Positions 189 through 8,514 of a stretch of 10,830 nucleotides of DNA are shown here, piece after piece. The notes under the pieces were generated by a model. It searched no databases and had not been told where the DNA came from. It saw nothing but the letters and a program-made list of their open reading frames with translations. The DNA lies in contig CALLZA010000644.1 of assembly GCA_937858165.1 (NCBI GenBank), positions 1-10,830 of the forward strand, read 5' to 3'. The first letter of the stretch is position 1; each line of letters starts with the position of its first letter. This DNA is from an uncultured Ardenticatenia bacterium. GTDB taxonomy: Bacteria; Chloroflexota; Anaerolineae; Promineifilales; Promineifilaceae. The translations under genes and the position numbers were made by a program.

Positions 189-610
189 GTATTGTCCTGC
201 CCGCAGCAAAGGGGGCCGGCGACAAGAAAGCAGCGTCGCCCGCCGCGACGGAGAGCCGGCGCGCCCGGCCCAAGGCGGCCGGGGACAACGGCGCTCAGGC
301 CACCCCCCCGCCGTCCGCCGCGCCCGTTTCCAATGGCAATGGCGGCAAACGCGCTCGCGCGTCGGCGGAGAAGCCGGCGGCCACGAAAACGGCCGAGCCG
401 CCGGCCCAGATGGCGTTGCCGATAGACGAGCCAGCGGAGGCTCCTAAGGCCGCGCCGCGCGCTGGCAAATCGTCCGCGAGAAAGTCGCCCGCGCCGGCGA
501 AACAACCCGCTCCCCCGAAAGCGGCCAAGAAAGTGACGCCGGCTGCGGCCGAACCGCCACCGCCCGTGGCCAAGGAAGAGAAAAAGACAACAAGGACGAA
601 GAAGTCCTGA
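189..610 (+). CDS. 3' end of an unidentified protein with an Ala/Lys/Pro-rich basic tail (5' truncated)
   Basis: Read from 191, the frame is open to TGA at 608-610 and gives about 139 residues made almost wholly of Ala, Lys, Pro, Arg, Glu and Thr, with stretches such as KSPAPAKQPAPPKAAKK and a final EKKTTRTKKS. This looks like the disordered, histone-H1-like tail carried by some bacterial topoisomerases, helicases, RNA-binding proteins and nucleoid proteins. The folded part lies upstream and is missing because the contig begins at the Tn5 junction at 188/189. An internal ATG at 410 is probably not the start, since the same composition continues upstream of it. The parent protein cannot be identified. 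The cold-shock gene downstream makes a nucleic-acid-binding role plausible, but that is only inference. It is low complexity throughout, so homology searches will be weak. Confidence 0.6.
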
Positions 611-689
611 TGTTTTACCCGCCCTCTAGCGACGATAATGACGCGGGTAGAGCAACCCGCGCTACGACTATAGCTGATCGGAGAACAAT
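611..689 (+). promoter_or_regulatory. Structured leader of the cold-shock gene with two competing hairpins
   Basis: Two mutually exclusive stems share one strand. TACCCGC (616-622) can pair with GCGGGTA (643-649). Alternatively CGCGGGT (642-648) can pair with ACCCGCG (655-661) around a 6-base loop. The second lacks a T-run, so it is not a standard terminator of the upstream gene. GATAAT (634-639) and TATAGC (669-674) are possible -10 boxes, but neither has a convincing -35. A clear ribosome binding site, GGAGA (680-684), sits 5 bases before the ATG at 690. Confidence 0.4.
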
Positions 690-1229
690 ATGAACTTTCG
701 TGATCGTTGGGAAGAGAATGAGCAAGGGGAACGCTTCGTGTTCACCGTAGAGATGCAGCGCCGGCTGAGTCAGGCCGGGCTGCCCATCGAGCCAACGGCG
801 CTGGCGCAGTTGCCGGCTGTGGCCGCCCGCGCGCCGCGCGAATCGCGCGAGCCGCGGGAGTCACGCGACTGGCAGCCGAGTGGCGAGCAGTCGTCGGGTG
901 ACAGCTATGCCCCGTCGCGCGAACGCGAACCGCAGCGCGAACGGGAGCGCGAACAGGAGCGCGAACAGGAGATCGTCGGGCCAGAGACCATCCAGATCGA
1001 CCCGATGACAGGTAAGTACATCGGCCTCGTCAAGTGGTACAACGATAAGAAGGGGTACGGGTTCATCGTCCGCGGCGCGGGCGAGGAGATCTTCTTTCAC
1101 AAGTCGGCCACCGTCGGCGAGGTCGAGGGGTACGAAGAAGGGCAGTGGGTCCTCTACGACGTGGAGACCCGCCAGAAAGGCCCCGAGGCGACCGACGTGG
1201 AGCCGTACACTGGCGAGCCTATCGAGTAA
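690..1229 (+). CDS. Cold-shock-domain protein with a charged N-terminal extension
   Basis: The 179-residue protein carries a C-terminal cold-shock domain (about 108-173): GLVKWYNDKKGYGFI includes the RNP1 motif KGYGFI (121-126), and EIFFHKS (133-139) is RNP2. Such OB-fold domains bind single-stranded RNA or DNA, and the small stand-alone members act as RNA chaperones. Typical CspA proteins are about 65-75 residues, so this one has roughly 105 extra N-terminal residues. Residues 1-35 (starting MNFRDRWEENEQGERF) look weakly ordered or form a small unknown domain. Residues 48-95 are a disordered Arg/Glu/Ser-rich linker with RES and RER repeats. The aromatic at KWYN is Tyr where Phe is usual. The start is supported by GGAGA 5 bases upstream. 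The gene stands alone, behind a structured leader and ahead of a large hairpin that ends the transcript. Confidence 0.9.
   Translation: MNFRDRWEENEQGERFVFTVEMQRRLSQAGLPIEPTALAQLPAVAARAPRESREPRESRDWQPSGEQSSGDSYAPSREREPQREREREQEREQEIVGPETIQIDPMTGKYIGLVKWYNDKKGYGFIVRGAGEEIFFHKSATVGEVEGYEEGQWVLYDVETRQKGPEATDVEPYTGEPIE
932..970 (+). repeat. 12-bp in-frame tandem repeat in the charged linker
   Basis: The unit GGAGCGCGAACA occurs exactly twice (944-955 and 956-967), with a degenerate copy just before (from 932) and a partial one after. Because 12 is a multiple of 3, each copy adds four charged residues of the Arg/Glu/Gln type (RERE or REQE). This is likely a slippage-prone tract whose copy number could vary between strains without a frameshift. 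Confidence 0.7.
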
Positions 1230-1239
1230 ATGTAGAAGA

Positions 1240-1333
1240 GCTCACGCAAAGGACGCCAAGATAGCAAAGAGCGCAAAGAAGAAATAATGTTCTTCTTTGC
1301 GCTCTTTGCTTCCGTGGCGTTCTTGGCGTGAGC
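1240..1333. terminator. Large 44-bp stem hairpin between convergent genes
   Basis: The arms 1240-1283 and 1290-1333 are complementary at 39 of 44 positions, closing on the 6-base loop ATAATG (1284-1289). The inner 21 bp are perfect (1263-1283 against 1290-1310), and so are the outer 8 bp (GCTCACGC / GCGTGAGC). It fills the gap between the cold-shock stop (1227-1229) and the permease stop (1337-1339), so it can act as a bidirectional terminator or transcript stabiliser. No long T-run follows the stem on either strand. Its size and purine-rich AAAGAGCGCAAAGAA arms resemble a dispersed palindromic element that has settled in a terminator position; that reading is inference. Confidence 0.75.
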
Positions 1334-1336
1334 CTC

Positions 1337-2326
1337 TTACTCTTTGGCCACACCGCTGCCGTGGACCAGGCGGGGGTCAAGCGCGTCGCGCAGACCGTCG
1401 CCCAGTAGATTGAAGGCCAGCACGGTCAGCATAATGGCCAGACCGGGGAAAAAGACGAGATGCGGCGCGCTGAAGACCTGATTGCGCTCCTGGGCCAGCA
1501 TCGCGCCCCACTCCGGCGTCGGCGGTTGCGCCCCCAAGCCGATGAATGACAGGGCGGCTGTGTCCAAAATAGCCGTAGCGATGCCCAGCGTGGCCACGAC
1601 GATCAGCGGTGGCAGGGCGTTGGGCAGGATGCGGTTGAACAGGATGTGCCAACTGCTGGCCCCCAGCGCGCGCGACGCTTCGATAAAGTCCATCTGGCGC
1701 ACTGATAGAACGCTGGCCCGCGTCACGCGGGCGTAGGAGGGGATGCTGATGATGGCAATGGCCAGCATGGCGTTCGTAAGCCCCGGGCCCAGCACGCTGA
1801 CGATGGCGATGGCCAACAGCAGGAATGGGAAGGCCAGCACGACGTCCAGGATGCGCATGATGAAGTTGTCGGCCCAGCCGCCGAAGAAGCCGGCGATGGC
1901 CCCCAGCAGGGTGCCGGTGATGACGGCGAAGCCCACGGTCAGCAAGCCGACATAGAGCGAGACGCGCGTGCCGTAGATAATGCGGCTGAACACATCGCGG
2001 AAGTTGCCGTCGATGCCCATGATGTGCTGCGGCTGGTCGGTCGGGCAACCCAGCAGATGGATGCACGGGCCGTCGCGCTTGCCGACGTTCTCAATCCCAA
2101 TGAGCGGCTGCTCCGGGTCATAGGGAGCGATAAGCGGGGCGAAGAGCGCGCTGAACAGCAGTGTGCCCAGTAGGATCATGCCGACGACGGCCGACTTCTG
2201 GCGGAAGAGCCGCCGCAGTGTCAGCCGCCACAGCGTATTGGCGCGATAGTCGCCGATACTGGCGACGGCGGCGTCGTCCAGCGGCGGCAGGGTGGTGACC
2301 GGTGTTGGCTCGGACGCGAGTGACAT
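1337..2326 (-). CDS. Peptide/nickel-type ABC transporter permease, DppC/OppC-like
   Basis: This 329-residue inner-membrane protein is one of two permease subunits of a family-5 importer for oligopeptides or similar solutes. After a cytoplasmic N-terminus, a first membrane helix lies at about 44-68. A periplasmic loop follows and leads into FRDVFSRIIYGTRVSL (109-124), the equivalent of the GRDVLSR motif typical of DppC. The permease core runs from about 122 to 315. The ATPase-docking EAA loop is visible as EASRALGASSWHILFNRILPN (216-236). LSFIGLGAQPPTPEWG (259-274) and the C-terminal LGDGLRDALDPR are classic for the subfamily. An unusual insert before the GRDV-like motif carries Cys88 and Cys94. 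It starts 5 bases after the DppB-like stop with only a weak ribosome site, so translation is probably coupled. Substrate cannot be told from sequence. Confidence 0.95.
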   Translation of the reverse strand: MSLASEPTPVTTLPPLDDAAVASIGDYRANTLWRLTLRRLFRQKSAVVGMILLGTLLFSALFAPLIAPYDPEQPLIGIENVGKRDGPCIHLLGCPTDQPQHIMGIDGNFRDVFSRIIYGTRVSLYVGLLTVGFAVITGTLLGAIAGFFGGWADNFIMRILDVVLAFPFLLLAIAIVSVLGPGLTNAMLAIAIISIPSYARVTRASVLSVRQMDFIEASRALGASSWHILFNRILPNALPPLIVVATLGIATAILDTAALSFIGLGAQPPTPEWGAMLAQERNQVFSAPHLVFFPGLAIMLTVLAFNLLGDGLRDALDPRLVHGSGVAKE

Positions 2327-2331
2327 GGTGG

Positions 2332-3411
2332 TTAGTCCAAATGGATGCGCGGGTCCAGAATGGCGTAGGACAGGTCAACGATAAGGTTGACCATGACGTA
2401 GCCGACGGCGATGACGACAACGAAGCCCTGGATGATGGGGTAGTCGCGGGCGGTGATGGCTTCGTAGAGGCTGCGGCCGACACCGGCCAGCCCGAAGGTC
2501 GTCTCGGTCAAAATGGCCCCGCTGAGCACCAGGCCGAATTGCAGGCCGATGATGGTCACGATAGGGAGTAGGGCGTTGCGGAAGGCGTGTTTCATGACGA
2601 CCTGACGCTGGCGCAGCCCCTTGGCTCGCGCGGTGCGCACGTAGTCCTGGCCCAGCACCTCCAGCATGGCCGAGCGGGTCATGCGGGCGACGATAGCCAG
2701 GGGGATGGTCGCCAGAGCGACGGCGGGCAGGATCAGGTGGCGGACGGCGTCGGCCAGTACGTCCCACGCGCCGGTAATGATCGAGTTAAAGATGTAGAAG
2801 TTGCTGATGAACTCCGCCAGACCGGCGCTGAAGGTGCCTTCGGTCAGCTGCCAGCCATAAACCTCATAGAACGGCACGGCGCTGACGCCGGCCGAGAGGC
2901 GGCCGCTGGCCGGCAACTGGAACGGCGTATCCTTTAGCAGCAGGGCGAAGACGTAAATAAGCATCAACCCCAGCCAGAAGACAGGCATGGACACGCCGAT
3001 ATTGGCGCCAATCATCGTCGCCACATCGGTCGGCGAGTTGCGCCGCAGGGCAGAGATGATGCCGAGAGGAATACCGATGCTGATAGCCATCACGACCGAG
3101 GCGATGCCCAACTCGATCGTTTGCGGCAGGCGCTCGATGAGGATCTCCATGACTGGCCGCTTGAAGCGGATGGAGTCGCCGAAGTCGCCGCGCAGCATGT
3201 CACGGGCGAAGATGAGGAACTGCGTCGACAGCGGTTTGTCTAGTCCCTTTTCGGCGTTGAAGATGGCGCATACTTCGGGCGTGGCCTTTTCGCCGAACAT
3301 GGCGGTGCAAGGCTCGCCGGGAATGGCGCGGGCCAGGGCGAAGGTGACGATTAGAACACCGATGACCACTGGGATAGCCGCCAACAGCCGGCGGATCGTG
3401 TATTGGGTCAT
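2332..3411 (-). CDS. Peptide/nickel-type ABC transporter permease, DppB/OppB-like
   Basis: The 359-residue protein begins MTQYTIRRLLAAIPVVIGVL, the standard DppB N-terminal helix, followed by a periplasmic stretch with GDFGDSIRFKRPV (75-87) and LPQTIELG (95-102), all characteristic of the DppB family. The permease core covers about 100-355, with the EAA loop at 256-283 (DYVRTARAKGLRQRQVVMK) that docks an ATPase. FGLAGVGRSLYEAI (306-319) and the terminal ILDPRI are further hallmarks. A long periplasmic segment (about 160-215) is somewhat enlarged. Cys35 and Cys48 lie in the first periplasmic loop. I chose the start at 3411 because GAGGGG lies a few bases upstream; the in-frame ATG 48 bases further up would add a non-conserved tail read from a hairpin. 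It pairs with the DppC-like subunit to form the channel. Confidence 0.95.
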   Translation of the reverse strand: MTQYTIRRLLAAIPVVIGVLIVTFALARAIPGEPCTAMFGEKATPEVCAIFNAEKGLDKPLSTQFLIFARDMLRGDFGDSIRFKRPVMEILIERLPQTIELGIASVVMAISIGIPLGIISALRRNSPTDVATMIGANIGVSMPVFWLGLMLIYVFALLLKDTPFQLPASGRLSAGVSAVPFYEVYGWQLTEGTFSAGLAEFISNFYIFNSIITGAWDVLADAVRHLILPAVALATIPLAIVARMTRSAMLEVLGQDYVRTARAKGLRQRQVVMKHAFRNALLPIVTIIGLQFGLVLSGAILTETTFGLAGVGRSLYEAITARDYPIIQGFVVVIAVGYVMVNLIVDLSYAILDPRIHLD

Positions 3412-3433
3412 GTTTGCCCCTCGGTCGAAAAGG

Positions 3434-3472
3434 GCAGGCGGGATGGAGGACGCGGCCATCCATCCCGCCTGC
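3434..3472 (-). terminator. Intercistronic hairpin followed by T's, between binding protein and permeases
   Basis: Arms 3434-3447 and 3459-3472 form a perfect 14-bp GC-rich stem with an 11-base loop. In the direction of transcription (minus strand) the stem is followed by CCTTTTCG, so it resembles a partial rho-independent terminator. In importer operons, hairpins after the binding-protein gene commonly give more binding protein than permease by attenuation or 3'-end protection. The permease start lies 22 bases beyond the stem. Confidence 0.7.
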
Positions 3473-3488
3473 GGCGATCAGTTAGAAA

Positions 3489-3504
3489 GCAAGCTCACGC
3501 TTGC
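3489..3504 (-). other. Small hairpin just after the binding-protein stop codon
   Basis: GCAAGC (3489-3494) and GCTTGC (3499-3504) form a 6-bp stem around TCAC. It lies between the stop codon at 3517-3519 and the larger terminator-like hairpin. It may help protect the 3' end of the binding-protein message, but a stem this short can arise by chance. Confidence 0.35.
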
Positions 3505-3516
3505 GTGCCGGCGGGC

Positions 3517-5352
3517 CTACCCTTCGGCCGGCGGGGCGTTCAGGAAGCCACCCCACAGCGCCGAGAAGTAGGAGAACGCGCCGGTGTTGCCGACGTGGAA
3601 CGGATGGGAAGCATCCCACTGCACCACGTAGGACATGACGACGTCATTGGCGTCCAGGGCCGACCCGTCGTGGAAGGTGACGCCTTCACGCAGGGTGCAA
3701 GTCCAGACGGTCAGGTCTTCGTTGGGCGTGCAGGCCGTGGCCAGCGACGGCTCAACAGCCGTGCCGCCGACCTCATAGGCCAGCAGCGCTTCAGTCGTCT
3801 GCTCGCAAGCGCGCAGCGACTCGCCGTCGGTCTCGTCGGCGCAGTAGAGGCTGATCGGCTCAGCGTTCTGCATCCAGACGAAGGTGTCCTTGCCGGGGTT
3901 CATACGGGCGAAGGACTCGTTGCCCAGCGGGCTGACGTGCGGCTCGGTGACCGAGGCCAGATAGGCCACGCCGGAACCGCCGTGGGCCACAGGAACCATC
4001 GGCACCAGGTCGCGGATCAGGTTGTTGGCCTGCTCATAGAGCGGGGCGCGGTCGTCATCACTGGCCAGCGAGGCAGCCTCGGCCAGCACCGTGGTCAGCT
4101 CGTCGAACTGGTCGCCGAACTGGGCCGACGAACCGGCGCCGAAGTGGTAGTCAACGAAGTTGGTCATGTCGGGGTAGTCAGCGCCCCAACCCAACAGGTG
4201 CAACCCCTCGATCGCGCCGGCGTCGGCCGCTTCGAGGAACGCGCCGGACTCCATGACCACGATCTCGGCCGTGATGTTCAGGTTCTCCAGCAACTGGGCC
4301 TGAATGTCCTGGGCGACGATGTTGGGGTCGGGCAGATAGCCGCGGACGACGTCACGATAGGTGATGGTCGTCTCGAAGCCGTCGCCGAGACCCGCTTCTT
4401 CCAGCAGGGCGCGGGCGGCTTCGACATCGAACTCGTGCCACGCCTCGCCGGCGCAGCCGTTGGGGATGGAGCACGGGGTGAAGTGCGACGCGACCTCAGA
4501 GCCGGCCGGGTAGAAGTTGTCGACGATGCGCTGCCGGTCGATGCCCATGGCGATCGCCTGGCGGACGAGAACATCGTCGAACGGGGCGAAGGTATTGTTC
4601 ATACCAACGTAGAAGACGTTGAGGGCCGGACGCTCCAACAGTTGCAGGTTGGTGTCGCCGGCGATGGTCTCGAAGTCATCCGGGGCCGGGTTGTCGATAC
4701 CGTCTACCGCGCCGGTCTGCAGTTCCAGCAGGCGCGCCGCGGACTCGGTCTGCCAACGGAAGACGAGTGTGTCGGCGAAAGCCGCATCACCCCAATAGTT
4801 GGGGTTCTTTGTGTAGACCAGCTCTTCGCCGCGGCTCCAGTTCTCGACCATGTAGGGGCCGGTACCGATGGGCTTCTCCAGCAGGTCGCCGGTGCCGCCG
4901 GTGGACTCGAGGTACTCCGAGGGCTGGATGGCGAACGACGTGAAGGCCGCCTTCGACGGGAAAGCCGGGTCGGGCGAGCACATGGAGAACTGCACCGTCA
5001 TCGGATCGATGGCCGCGATTTCCTGGAACAGACCGGTATAGCCCTCAGCCTCGCAGTCGGCCGAGACGACCATCAGGTCGCCGGCCGGTTCTTCGGCCAT
5101 AGCGGTAGCCGCGGCCTCAACCGTGGGGGCGATCTCTTCGACCGCCGCCGCGACGGTCGGCGCCAGCTCGGTCGCCGCGGCTTCGAGGGTCGGCGCGAGC
5201 TCCTCGACTGCCGCCTGAACCGTCGGGCCGACCTGGGTCGCCGCGCTTTCAATCGCCCCCTGAATATCGCCACTCGTCGCCGTACAGGCGGTGAGGGCCA
5301 GGGCAGCGATGAGAAGCAATCCTAACATCCACAAAACACGATTCTTCTTCAT
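3517..5352 (-). CDS. Peptide/nickel-type ABC transporter substrate-binding lipoprotein, circularly permuted
   Basis: The 611-residue lipoprotein captures the solute outside the membrane and passes it to the two permeases downstream. Residues 1-23 are a signal peptide ending in the lipobox LTAC (lipid-anchored Cys23). Residues 30-84 are a five-unit stalk of 11-residue repeats. The family-5 (SBP_bac_5) fold follows in unusual order. It opens with IDPMTVQFSMCSPDPAF (115-131), KPIGTGPYMVENW (160-172) and NPNYWG (183-188). These continue through FDDVLVRQAIAMGIDRQRI (258-276) and LLGWGADYPDMTNF (386-399) to VPMVPVAHGG (450-459). Only then comes the block that normally opens the protein: AEPISLYC (497-504), TEALLAYEVGGTAVEPSLA (520-538) and WTCTLREGVTFHDG (550-563) with DANDVV. 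Cysteines occur in possible disulfide pairs, for example 541/552 and 504/516. AAGGAG precedes the ATG at 5352; ATGs further upstream lie within polX or the promoter region. Confidence 0.95.
   Translation of the reverse strand: MKKNRVLWMLGLLLIAALALTACTATSGDIQGAIESAATQVGPTVQAAVEELAPTLEAAATELAPTVAAAVEEIAPTVEAAATAMAEEPAGDLMVVSADCEAEGYTGLFQEIAAIDPMTVQFSMCSPDPAFPSKAAFTSFAIQPSEYLESTGGTGDLLEKPIGTGPYMVENWSRGEELVYTKNPNYWGDAAFADTLVFRWQTESAARLLELQTGAVDGIDNPAPDDFETIAGDTNLQLLERPALNVFYVGMNNTFAPFDDVLVRQAIAMGIDRQRIVDNFYPAGSEVASHFTPCSIPNGCAGEAWHEFDVEAARALLEEAGLGDGFETTITYRDVVRGYLPDPNIVAQDIQAQLLENLNITAEIVVMESGAFLEAADAGAIEGLHLLGWGADYPDMTNFVDYHFGAGSSAQFGDQFDELTTVLAEAASLASDDDRAPLYEQANNLIRDLVPMVPVAHGGSGVAYLASVTEPHVSPLGNESFARMNPGKDTFVWMQNAEPISLYCADETDGESLRACEQTTEALLAYEVGGTAVEPSLATACTPNEDLTVWTCTLREGVTFHDGSALDANDVVMSYVVQWDASHPFHVGNTGAFSYFSALWGGFLNAPPAEG
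5101..5265 (-). repeat. Five 11-residue (33-bp) repeats forming the lipoprotein stalk
   Basis: Residues 30-84 of the binding protein divide into five 11-residue units: IQGAIESAATQ, VGPTVQAAVEE, LAPTLEAAATE, LAPTVAAAVEE, IAPTVEAAATA. Odd units carry AAT and even units AVEE at the same place, so the true period may be 22 residues (66 bp). An 11-residue period is typical of extended right-handed helical coils. The likely role is a spacer or oligomerising stalk between the lipid anchor and the binding domain. Confidence 0.75.
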
Positions 5353-5404
5353 CTCTTTCTCTCCTTGCCTAACTTGGGGCCAAGACCGGCCCATGAGGGA
5401 TACT

Positions 5405-5432
5405 AGAATAGCATGGCCGAACCAAAAGACAA
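5405..5432 (-). promoter_or_regulatory. Candidate promoter of the ABC importer operon
   Basis: On the minus strand TTGTCT (5427-5432) and TATTCT (5405-5410) are separated by 16 bases, each matching 4 of 6 bases of the sigma-70 consensus. Transcription would start near 5398 and leave a leader of about 45 bases, including the AAGGAG ribosome site, before the ATG at 5352. Position and direction fit, but the match is modest. Confidence 0.4.
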
Positions 5433-5441
5433 GGAAGTTAT

Positions 5442-5477
5442 AAGACCTCGAGGCTCTTCTGAGACCTCTGAGGTCTT
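5442..5477. promoter_or_regulatory. Palindromic element between divergent promoters (operator-like or dispersed repeat)
   Basis: Outer arms AAGACCTC (5442-5449) and GAGGTCTT (5470-5477) are perfectly complementary. Within the element are the palindromes CCTCGAGG (5446-5453) and AGACCTC-T-GAGGTCT (5462-5476), so the heptamer AGACCTC appears twice in direct and once in inverted orientation. It lies between the importer promoter and the polX -10 box, over the place where the polX -35 would be, which suits a shared operator. It may instead be a mobile palindromic repeat. Confidence 0.45.
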
Positions 5478-5483
5478 TCGCGC

Positions 5484-5489
5484 TATAAT
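5484..5489 (+). promoter_or_regulatory. Perfect -10 box of polX, implying a leaderless transcript
   Basis: TATAAT ends 8 bases before the polX ATG at 5498. A start 6-8 bases downstream of the box would fall at about 5495-5497, so the mRNA would begin almost at the start codon. There is no good -35 at 16-18 bases upstream. The adjacent GGAGG (5491-5495) is only 2 bases from the ATG and would be largely outside such a transcript. If transcription starts further upstream, GGAGG would be a badly spaced ribosome site. Confidence 0.5.
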
Positions 5490-5497
5490 GGGAGGCC

Positions 5498-7261
5498 ATG
5501 AAAAACCGCGAGGTCGTCGAACTCTTCAGCCGCGTAGCCGACATGCTCGCCATTCGCGGCGACCAGATCCACCGCATCCTGGCCTATCGAAAGGCGGCGG
5601 AGAGCATCGACGCTCTCGGCCGCGACGTGAACGTCATCTTTGCCGAGGGCAAGCTGACCGAGATTCCCGGCATCGGCGATACGCTGGCGGCCAAGATCGA
5701 AGAGATGCTCACCACCGGCCGGCTGGTGTTCTATGACAAGCTGGCCCAGGAGATTCCGCCGGGCCTGGTTGACATGCTGCGTGTCGAAGGACTGGGGCCG
5801 AAGCGCGTCAAGCAGGTCTATGAGACGCTGAAGATCACGACGCTGGACGAATTGACAGCGGCCGCTCGCGCCGGCAAGCTGCGCGATCTGCCGGGCATGG
5901 GGGCCAAGTCGGAGGCCAAGATTCTGGCCGGCATCGAGGCGCTGGCTCGCCACGGCGACACGCGCATCCCCCTCGGCGTGGCCTGGCCCATCGCCCAGAC
6001 GATGCTCGACGAGTTGGCCAAGGTTCCGGGCGTCACGGCAGCGGCGGTTGGCGGTTCGCTGCGCCGGATGCGCGATACGATCGGCGACATCGACCTGCTG
6101 GTGGCCTCCGACGATGCTGCGCCGGTCATGGATCGCTTTGCCGCCCTGGAGAACGTTGAATCGGTAGCCGGGCGCGGGCCGACCAAGACTAACGTTGTGT
6201 TGCTCAATGGATTGGGCGTCGATCTGCGTGTGTTGCCCGCCGCGCGCTGGGGCACGCTGCTCAACTACTTCACCGGCAGCCAGGCCCACAACGTCAAGCT
6301 GCGCGAGATGGCCCTCAAGAAGGGGCTGAGCCTGAATGAGCACGCCTTCACGCCGCTCGACGGCGGGCCGGAGATTCTGTGCGCGACGGAAGAAGAGGTC
6401 TATGCTCGCCTCGGCCTGCCGTTCATCCCGCCCTGTCTACGCGAGGATCGCGGCGAGATCGAGGCCGCACTGGCCGGCCGGCTGCCGTTGCTCGTCCAAC
6501 TCGACGACATCCGTACCGACCTGCACATGCACACCCACTGGTCCGACGGCACGCTGAGCGTCCTGGAAATGGCCCGGGCGGCGCGCGACGCCGGCTTGCA
6601 GGCCGTGGCCATCACCGACCACTCGGTCAGCCTGGGCGTGGCCAATGGCCTGTCGGTAGAGCGTTTGCGGCAGCAGGCGGCCGAAGTGCGCGCCGCCAAT
6701 GAGGCACTTGGCCCCGACTTCCACGTGCTCCACGGTACGGAGATGGAGATTCGCGCCGACGGCACGCTGGACTACCCCGATGAGGTGCTGGCGGAACTCG
6801 ACTTCGTTATCGCCAGCCTGCATACAGGCCTCAGCCAGCCGCGCGAGCAGGTCACGACGCGCTTGCTGAACGCCATCCGCAACCCACACGTTGACATGAT
6901 CGCTCATCCGACCGGCCGGCTGCTGCCCGATCGGGCTGGGGCCGACCTGGATATGGACGCCGTGCTGGCCGCGGCGGCCGAGACGGGGACGATTCTGGAG
7001 ATCAACGCCCACCCGGCGCGGCTCGACCTGCGCGATAGCCACGTCCGGCGGGCCGTTGAGCTGGGCGTGCGGATCGCTATCAACACCGACGCCCACCGAC
7101 CGGGCGAGTTCGATAATCGGGGTTACGGCGTGGCCACAGCGCAACGCGGCTGGGCCACGGCCGGCGATGTGGTCAACACCTGGCCGCTCGCCGACTTCCT
7201 GAGCTTTATCGCCGCCAAGAACGCCCCGCCGAGCGCATCCGGCAGCGAGCGTGCCCAATGA
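5498..7261 (+). CDS. polX: DNA polymerase/3'-5' exonuclease PolX (family X, with PHP domain)
   Basis: This 587-residue repair enzyme fills short DNA gaps, as in base excision repair, and trims 3' ends with a second active site. An N-terminal helix-hairpin-helix 8-kDa-like region (1-95) contains IPGIGDTLAAKIEEM (56-70), and a second hairpin region includes LRVEGLGPKRVKQVYE (94-109). The palm starts at VGGSLRRMRDTIGDIDLL (184-201), with catalytic Asp197 and Asp199; the third is Asp242 (VDLRVLP). The thumb includes LLNYFTGSQAHN (254-265) and GLSLNEHAF (276-284). The C-terminal PHP domain (about 337-575) keeps all the metal ligands expected of an active exonuclease: His343, His345, Asp350, His375, Glu415, His442, His470, Asp531 and His533. 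The length is normal for bacterial PolX. The start is fixed by the conserved N-terminal pattern. The stop overlaps the next gene (ATGA), so the two are co-transcribed. Confidence 0.97.
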   Translation: MKNREVVELFSRVADMLAIRGDQIHRILAYRKAAESIDALGRDVNVIFAEGKLTEIPGIGDTLAAKIEEMLTTGRLVFYDKLAQEIPPGLVDMLRVEGLGPKRVKQVYETLKITTLDELTAAARAGKLRDLPGMGAKSEAKILAGIEALARHGDTRIPLGVAWPIAQTMLDELAKVPGVTAAAVGGSLRRMRDTIGDIDLLVASDDAAPVMDRFAALENVESVAGRGPTKTNVVLLNGLGVDLRVLPAARWGTLLNYFTGSQAHNVKLREMALKKGLSLNEHAFTPLDGGPEILCATEEEVYARLGLPFIPPCLREDRGEIEAALAGRLPLLVQLDDIRTDLHMHTHWSDGTLSVLEMARAARDAGLQAVAITDHSVSLGVANGLSVERLRQQAAEVRAANEALGPDFHVLHGTEMEIRADGTLDYPDEVLAELDFVIASLHTGLSQPREQVTTRLLNAIRNPHVDMIAHPTGRLLPDRAGADLDMDAVLAAAAETGTILEINAHPARLDLRDSHVRRAVELGVRIAINTDAHRPGEFDNRGYGVATAQRGWATAGDVVNTWPLADFLSFIAAKNAPPSASGSERAQ

Positions 7262-8514
7262 TCGATTCAGTGCCAACCGCCGCCGGCCAATTGGATGCCC
7301 AGATACTGGCCAGCCTGCGCGCCGTTGCCGCTCCACACACCTACCCGCCGGAAACCCAACTGACCCACCAGGGGGAGACGGAGCATACCTTCTACGTCAT
7401 CGAGGACGGCCGCGCCGCCGTCTCGCGCCGGCTGGAGGACGGCACGGAGCAGTTGCTCAACGTGCTCGGCCCGCGCCAGATCTTCGGCGAGATGGCCCTG
7501 CTGGACAACAGCCCGCGTCTGGCAACAATCACGACGCTGACTGAGACGCGCGTGCTGGAGTTGACGGCCGAGCAGTTCAAACAGTTGTTGCGCCAGGACC
7601 CCGACCTGGCGCTGCACATCACCCGGCGCATTCTGTCCAACCTGCGCACGATCGACCAGTTGGCCATCCACGATCTGCGAACGAAAAACACCCTGTTGCA
7701 AGAGGCCTATCACAGTCTGAAGGCGGCCCAGGCTGAGCTGGTGGAAAAGGAGCGGTTGGAGCGGGAGATGGAGCTGGCGGCCGAGATGCAGCGTAGTCTG
7801 TTGCCGGCCGTCTTGCCGCGCTACGACGACTACTTTTTCGCCGCCTATCTGGCCCCGGCGCGCCACGTTGGCGGCGACCTGTTTGGCGTGCAACCGCTCG
7901 ATGATGAGCATGTGGGCCTGCTCATTGCCGATGTGGCCGACAAGGGTATGTACGCCGCGCTGCTGATGGCCGTCACGCGGACGCTATTCATGCAGGAGGC
8001 GCAACGCTCGTTATCGCCGGCTGAGGTCACCCTGGCCGTCCATCGGGGTCTGATGACTGTGGGCGGCGGGGAGGACGGCTACAGCATGGACGCTTTCGTT
8101 ACCGCCTTTTATGGCGTGCTCCACCGGCCGAGCGGCCGCCTGACCTACGTGCGGGCGGCTCAGGATCGGCCGCTGCTACTGCGCCCCAACCAGGCGCCCG
8201 TCTCTCTGCCCGGCGACGGCCGCTTCCTGGGCATGTTGCCCGAGCTGGAGTTGCGTGAGGAGGTGGTGACGTTGCAGCCCGGCGACTCGCTGCTCCTCTT
8301 CAGTGACGGCGTTACCGACGCGCATAACGAGGCGGACGAGCGGTATGGGCTTGAGCGGCTGCAACGCGTGTTTCAGAGCGTTGCCGGCCACGGCACAGAG
8401 ACGCTCGACCGGCTGGCCCAAGACGTGAACGCCTGGCGCGGCAACGCGGCGGCGTTCGACGACGTCACGATGTTACTTGCGGAGGCCATCGCTCCTGACA
8501 CGGGCGACGAATAA
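7258..8514 (+). CDS. Cyclic-nucleotide-binding domain / PP2C-type (SpoIIE/RsbU) serine phosphatase
   Basis: The 418-residue soluble protein has three parts. Residues 10-125 form a cyclic-nucleotide-binding domain with the phosphate-binding cassette FGEMALLDNSPRLAT (76-90); Glu78 and Arg87, which hold the ribose and phosphate in true cNMP binders, are present. Residues 140-188 are a helical, probably coiled-coil linker (KAAQAELVEKERLEREMELA) ending in MQRSLLP, the usual lead-in to SpoIIE-type domains. Residues 193-412 are the metal-dependent phosphatase: GGDLFG (Asp207), IADVADKGMYAALLMA (Asp225), LLFSDGVTDAHN (Asp350) and FDDVTMLL (Asp401/402). Such enzymes dephosphorylate anti-sigma-factor antagonists or similar regulators, so this one may do so in response to cAMP or cGMP. 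No partner kinase or antagonist is encoded nearby. GGDLFG lacks the second Asp of GGDxxD, and AAQDRP replaces the common AGHNPP. Its ATG overlaps the polX stop. Confidence 0.93.
   Translation: MIDSVPTAAGQLDAQILASLRAVAAPHTYPPETQLTHQGETEHTFYVIEDGRAAVSRRLEDGTEQLLNVLGPRQIFGEMALLDNSPRLATITTLTETRVLELTAEQFKQLLRQDPDLALHITRRILSNLRTIDQLAIHDLRTKNTLLQEAYHSLKAAQAELVEKERLEREMELAAEMQRSLLPAVLPRYDDYFFAAYLAPARHVGGDLFGVQPLDDEHVGLLIADVADKGMYAALLMAVTRTLFMQEAQRSLSPAEVTLAVHRGLMTVGGGEDGYSMDAFVTAFYGVLHRPSGRLTYVRAAQDRPLLLRPNQAPVSLPGDGRFLGMLPELELREEVVTLQPGDSLLLFSDGVTDAHNEADERYGLERLQRVFQSVAGHGTETLDRLAQDVNAWRGNAAAFDDVTMLLAEAIAPDTGDE

Follow-up and report, generated by a model that had tools for sequence, protein, structure and literature searches.

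The window, meaning the whole 10,830-nucleotide stretch of DNA analysed here, encodes a family-5 substrate-binding protein, predicted to be a lipoprotein, whose blocks stand in a rotated order. Very probably this is the working, tethered binding protein of a Dpp-like importer, a permuted DppA-type protein whose order arose by duplication, in a family that has undergone at least three permutations, one of them apparently reversed. The window makes up all of contig C644, and the genome it comes from is fragmented (4.45 Mb in 1043 contigs, 79% complete, 5.9% contamination).

Block order of the window protein

We built segment profiles separately for the usual N-terminal block (N), the middle (M) and the C-terminal part (C) of the chain. 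An ordinary protein of this type runs signal peptide, stalk, N, M, C, whereas the window chain has M, C and then N after its signal peptide and stalk. The gene and its neighbours are laid out as follows:

3517..5352 (-), gene of the circularly permuted family-5 substrate-binding protein (predicted lipoprotein), 611 aa plus stop, frame intact (Pfam, profile scan)
5284..5352 (-), predicted lipoprotein signal peptide with the lipobox LTAC (Cys23) at its end (read from the sequence)
5068..5283 (-), stalk, spanning residues about 24-95 (extent by eye) and containing a repeat of 11 residues (33 bp)
4378..5037 (-), segment M, residues 106-325, the second block of an ordinary DppA-type protein, here first in the mature fold (phmmer against the PDB, genome scan, segment profiles)
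3901..4377 (-), segment C, residues 326-484, the ordinary DppA-type C-terminal part, holding Arg337 and Asp392 (phmmer against the PDB, segment profiles, alignment)
3892..3900 (-), residues 485-487, the new joint from ancestral C-terminus to N-terminus (gap between segment matches)
3538..3891 (-), segment N, residues 488-605, the block that ordinarily comes first, now C-terminal (phmmer against the PDB, genome scan, segment profiles)
2332..3459 (-), DppB-like permease (BPD_transp_1 and BPD_transp_1_N), 57 bp downstream (domain match)
1337..2326 (-), DppC/GsiD-like permease (OppC_N and BPD_transp_1), downstream on the same strand (domain match)

Tandem Repeats Finder places the stalk repeat at 5103-5245 with a period of 33/66. 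The divergent upstream neighbour of the permuted gene encodes DNA polymerase beta thumb, HHH and PHP domains. At the other side of the window, positions 1-188 are a chimeric contig end carrying library adapter; the Illumina P7 adapter matches exactly at 123-146, with Nextera-like sequence after it.

Pfam, a genome scan with the same profile and phmmer against the PDB all resolve the protein into two swapped collinear blocks, which bears out the rotated order that the initial annotation had read from the letters. SBP_bac_5 (PF00496) matches in two stretches (E 2.4e-75; 254.4 bits against a curated cut-off of 32.4), the strongest of which lays residues 108-408 on profile positions 64-365. In the genome scan, profile positions 64-365 fall at 4129-5031(-) with 208 bits and positions 2-53 at 3601-3756(-) with 46.7 bits. 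Each piece exceeds the 32.4-bit cut-off separately, and 64-365 comes before 2-53 in the chain, so that alignment to PF00496 and DppA gives the profile's C-terminal part first and its N-terminal part second, as had been predicted. Neither Pfam nor the genome scan yielded a collinear N- to C-terminal SBP_bac_5 match in the window protein.

The best PDB relatives include HbpA (3m8u, 1e-58) and, lower down, DppA (1dpe, 1.2e-51). Residues 4-120 of 3m8u align with query residues 490-599 (39.5 bits, i-Evalue 3.4e-9) and residues 123-485 with 106-464 (162 bits); the DppA-type chain 5f1q is likewise swapped (62-149 on 521-602; 148-531 on 105-483). The bridge drawn at residues 471-496 was too wide, since the segment matches leave only about three residues (485-487) uncovered. 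The window protein scores below the cut-off of the DppA equivalog NF043070 (181.8 bits against 1005). We found no sign of a relationship to cluster B or MglB: SBP_bac_5 is the only Pfam family matched by the window protein, and no MglB-like name occurs among the best 60 of its 98 PDB matches.

Conservation of the moved block and the joint

Mean pairwise identity among 101 thinned permuted relatives is 61% in N, 57% in M and 55% in C. Conservation by column agrees with the pattern in DppA-like natural-order relatives (rho 0.51 in N, n=113; 0.51 in M; 0.55 in C) and, to a lower degree, with the pattern in more distant OppA-like natural proteins (0.27, 0.31 and 0.44, respectively). The moved N block is not vestigial and is as conserved as the rest of the chain. 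Arg337 and Asp392 are invariant in 66 aligned sequences; in the alignment with the DppA-type chain they would correspond to the dipeptide-binding Arg355 and Asp408 of DppA. A lipobox-like pattern lies within the first 45 residues in 112 of the 119 clusters with the M-C-N order (MCN; set P0001-P0120, pattern count).

Around the joint, residues 462-500 span 39 or 40 positions in all 66 aligned sequences, the window protein included. A joint so short and so nearly constant in length leads us to expect that the fold closes within one chain. The C-terminal block might instead swap into a neighbouring molecule to give a domain-swapped oligomer; intra- and intermolecular docking are indistinguishable from sequence alone, and one doubled relative (P0009) indicates that the domains can be concatenated. 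We regard such a swap as improbable, given the length of the joint and the fact that ordinary family-5 proteins are mostly monomeric. The window protein would most likely adopt the two-lobed fold usual for binding proteins. It is predicted to be tethered to the membrane by the stalk and the lipid at its N-terminus, the anchor entering the fold at the start of M and not of N. The moved block would still be needed; what would have changed is how the chain is connected, and hence where the tether enters.

Association with transporter genes

A DppB-like permease gene starts within 400 bp in 68 of the 81 permuted loci that have at least 1.3 kb downstream. The same holds for both loci of the C-N-M type described below (2/2), for the OppA-like permuted locus (1/1) and for 24 of 30 natural-order loci. 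At least two of the 13 permuted loci without such a neighbour reflect limits of the count, namely L100, with a frame overlap beyond the permitted limit, and L157, which has a second permuted gene in between. Most exceptions are divergent or front-fused (L084, L085, L086, L092, L149, L150 and L151); a few more are L042, L064, L066 and L088.

Genes for Dpp/Opp ATPases lie inside the gene clusters of the permuted relatives L078, L079, L082 and L085. None was seen among the genes examined on the window contig. The window genome has nine oligo_HPY matches off this contig, among which a partner of the permuted protein may lie. Beside the Dpp-type ATPases of L085 we also observed a gene in which WD40-type repeats are joined to a BPD_transp_1 permease domain (9769-12045(-)).

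The 13 loci lacking a nearby DppB-like permease gene, the lack of an ATPase gene among the window-contig genes examined, and the fusion of other binding modules to some relatives could each be read as marks of sensors or scavengers uncoupled from transport. There is little to recommend that reading, because B and C permeases adjoin the gene in the window and in most relatives, and ATPases are present in some permuted gene clusters. As the binding protein of an importer, the window protein would capture a peptide-like substrate and hand it to the downstream DppB/DppC-type permeases, and Dpp/Opp-type ATPases from other parts of the genome would presumably supply the power.

Recurrent permutation and an apparent reversion

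All three cyclic block orders are represented at related loci. Among 521 fetched proteins and ORFs in which each of the three segments was at least half covered, a biased set with repeats, we counted 238 in the natural order (NMC), 227 MCN and 56 CNM, and none in a non-cyclic order; distinct core sequences number 233, 201 and 45, respectively. The CNM order makes up 52 of the best 120 clusters for the query L078. Proteins of this type carry a signal and stalk in front, like the natural form, and are cut in a loop that links M to C. Some natural-order relatives retain this loop in full and share 73-83% identity with them over both blocks (P0171, P0179). MCN also occurs within the OppA-like branch, in L082 and four clusters (P0241-P0244). 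In the two pairs compared here, identity to the natural relatives is 64-76% across both blocks, and the cut maps between positions 206 and 208-210 of the natural profile.

We placed 123 representatives in an unrooted joint tree of re-ordered segments. Three order changes suffice for its 123 rows. The window's clade (63 rows, SH-aLRT 95) is entirely MCN, L082 falls within natural OppA-like proteins, and CNM falls within natural DppA-like proteins. The spread of the natural order over this unrooted tree and its presence in the three displayed PDB chains point to it as ancestral. Trees of single segments are noisier, with six order changes for N, three for M and four for C, and the N-segment tree does not hold the window's clade together (three changes, against one each for M and C). 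Each of them places L082 among natural OppA-like relatives, so this protein shifted in one piece and is no patchwork of unrelated parts.

On these trees, there seem to have been at least three independent permutations: in the window's clade, in the CNM type near natural-order proteins, and in the OppA-like case. A single ancient permutation behind all permuted forms, with the natural-order relatives as reversions, could draw on the one reversion that apparently did occur (see below). It is nonetheless very unlikely: forcing all MCN sequences into one clade costs 339.7 log-likelihood units and is rejected (p-AU 2e-59), L082 lies among natural-order proteins in all three segment trees, the three displayed PDB chains have the natural order, and the CNM type is cut at a different place.

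Besides these independent permutations, the data hold a strong hint, from sequence comparison, that the CNM permutation has been reversed in P0165 and P0168, two near-identical metagenomic sequences. Both have the natural order; they are 99.5% identical to each other and come from 2.9-kb contigs of two sources. P0165 is nested in the CNM clade (P0168 was thinned out of that tree) and shares 94% and 86% identity over two blocks with the CNM protein P0134. Constraining CNM and P0165 to one clade improves the likelihood by 20.3 units (p-AU 0.65), and a CNM clade without P0165 is rejected (p-AU 0.003); one CNM origin followed by reversion is preferred on these two results. We also considered several CNM origins, as P0184 and P0166/P0175 did not group with the main CNM clade in the first tree; this was set aside because the joint clade of CNM and P0165 is likelier.

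The loop between M and C, which could be measured by motif in 36 of 68 natural clusters, has 11 residues in P0165 and P0168 and 24 in all 34 other natural relatives measured. By eye, both ends of P0165 resemble the CNM linker split in two. Such a loop and such ends would be left if a permuted protein were closed up again and then cut elsewhere, and the pattern fits that course. The recurrence, the second cut site and the apparent reversion all go beyond what the initial annotation foresaw.

Distribution in Chloroflexota

The permuted subfamily of this known family is confirmed as real and widespread in the phylum. A homologue search with the window protein returned the permuted order in all of the best 120 of 5839 clusters, 119 of them MCN and the remaining one, P0009, a single chain made up of two permuted copies. 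In a sample of 400 Chloroflexota genomes, 62 match the window protein at 1e-60: 55 through the C-to-N junction, one over residues 97-462 only, and six in the natural order. Carriers occur within as well as beyond the window's class, and three single-contig genomes (G063, G389 and G048) match through the junction. MCN was also found at 33 of 35 loci from named genome records (Promineifilum, Anaerolineae and Candidatus Oscillochloris fontis are among the names); the two exceptions are a fragment, L075, and a locus in the natural order, L077. The guess that other Chloroflexota share the order was therefore right.

Within the window's genus, the gene is present on a 118,372-base contig of G002. 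In the near-complete G001 (three contigs; L087, G001:C1) it is split over two overlapping frames, and this copy is counted among the 55 junction-spanning genomes. The gene is not universal in relatives, some genomes, such as the same-genus G007 (68% complete), giving weak matches only. Permuted proteins also appear in records named Actinomycetota (L055, a MAG), Acidobacteria (L068, a MAG) and Pseudomonadales (P0087), by transfer or mis-binning. The loci L149 and L150, from two congeneric genomes, each have a permuted family-5 gene head to head with a natural-order one.

Misassembly or a repeat-induced chimera in a fragmented MAG, at which the contig number, completeness and contamination of the source genome and the Illumina adapter within the first ~190 bases of the contig might hint, is refuted to near certainty by the permuted order of all the best 120 of 5839 clusters, 33 of the 35 named-record loci and 55 of the 400 genomes, independent single-contig ones included. 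The initial annotation had argued against both misassembly and fusion, and the results agree with it on each count: the gene frame is intact and the same order recurs in independent genomes, all 120 listed relatives are alike, and the moved block matches the remainder of the chain in conservation. Swapped collinear blocks, an order shared by relatives and single-contig genomes, and equal conservation together argue for the circular permutation of a single protein.

Origin and fused forms

Most likely, the permuted order would stem from a duplicated gene whose copies were fused in frame and which then lost its first N block and its second M-C part. Permutation by duplication (PMC3320104) offers the simplest path. 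The protein P0009 (1050 aa) carries two complete permuted binding domains in one chain, so doubling does occur in the family, yet P0009 is not the ancestral intermediate. A second doubled protein like it was not seen in the 298 genomes of the class that were searched, 27 of which matched. We searched the C-N junction of L078 in 396 genomes and found, among the matches listed, no partial-duplication intermediate (N-M-C-N or similar); the new loci opened from this search hold only MCN, CNM and natural NMC forms and one cut NM form.

Other binding modules are fused in front of some family members. By our own profile, and with repeats included, an SBP_bac_3 module precedes 12 of 228 MCN calls and 23 of 243 NMC calls. 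Fusions ahead of natural and permuted SBP_bac_5 were observed in L080, L084, L085, L086, L092 and L194-L196, and near-alike SBP_bac_3 modules before both orders (L021, L080 and L086, by eye) suggest module swapping. L091 encodes a lipoprotein-like chain of 1140 aa with Peripla_BP_6, SBP_bac_3 and permuted SBP_bac_5 (4621-8040(-)), and L057 joins two Peripla_BP-like modules to a permuted one (3484-7527(+), by eye). In L096, a Ser/Thr protein kinase domain is fused to a natural-order SBP_bac_5 (271-3114(-)).

We put forward more tentatively, as somewhat more doubtful than likely, that the order of family-5 proteins in Chloroflexota has been permuted repeatedly and reversibly (at least three gains, two cut sites and one reversal that left a scar), being near-neutral for folding and selected for where a tether or front module enters. 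If so, the phylum would provide, for ABC importers, a natural experiment on where the tether is placed.

Comparison with known systems

The window protein is like DppA and HbpA (PF00496) in its similarity over all three segments, its predicted lipoprotein-type signal and its adjoining DppB/DppC-type permeases, and like DppA in its conserved Arg and Asp at the putative dipeptide anchors. It differs from both, which belong to structural cluster C, in its rotated order, with the tether before the second block and the C- and N-terminal blocks joined. It also differs from multi-module Chloroflexota binding lipoproteins with SBP_bac_3 or Peripla_BP_6 in front, having only the stalk there.

With linear profiles, genes of this kind come out as partial hits, as this one did, so permuted members are easily mistaken for truncated or mis-assembled ones. 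No description of the permuted family-5 subfamily was found in CC-licensed PMC full text. Among the matches listed there, we recognised no natural permuted substrate-binding protein other than TpMglB-2 (Tp0684), a permuted glucose-binding lipoprotein of Treponema pallidum for which 'Cluster Bc' was proposed (PMC4990184); it is the nearest precedent found, from a different structural cluster.

Both the window protein and TpMglB-2 are natural permutations of a tethered ABC binding protein in which the first part of one lobe is now C-terminal (PMC4990184). TpMglB-2 has the sugar-binding cluster B fold, whereas the present case is a family-5 protein with three origins, two cuts and one apparent reversion. 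The same paper raises permutation as a possible adaptation to anchoring (PMC4990184); the repeated cases here, some with a front-fused binding module, fit this idea and are no test of it. Natural-order relatives 73-83% identical to the CNM type provide matched experimental pairs, with which the role of chain order in tethering, lobe closure and docking, as proposed for TpMglB-2, becomes testable. Beside that precedent, a single large and well-studied family would here show three independent permutations and an apparent reversion.
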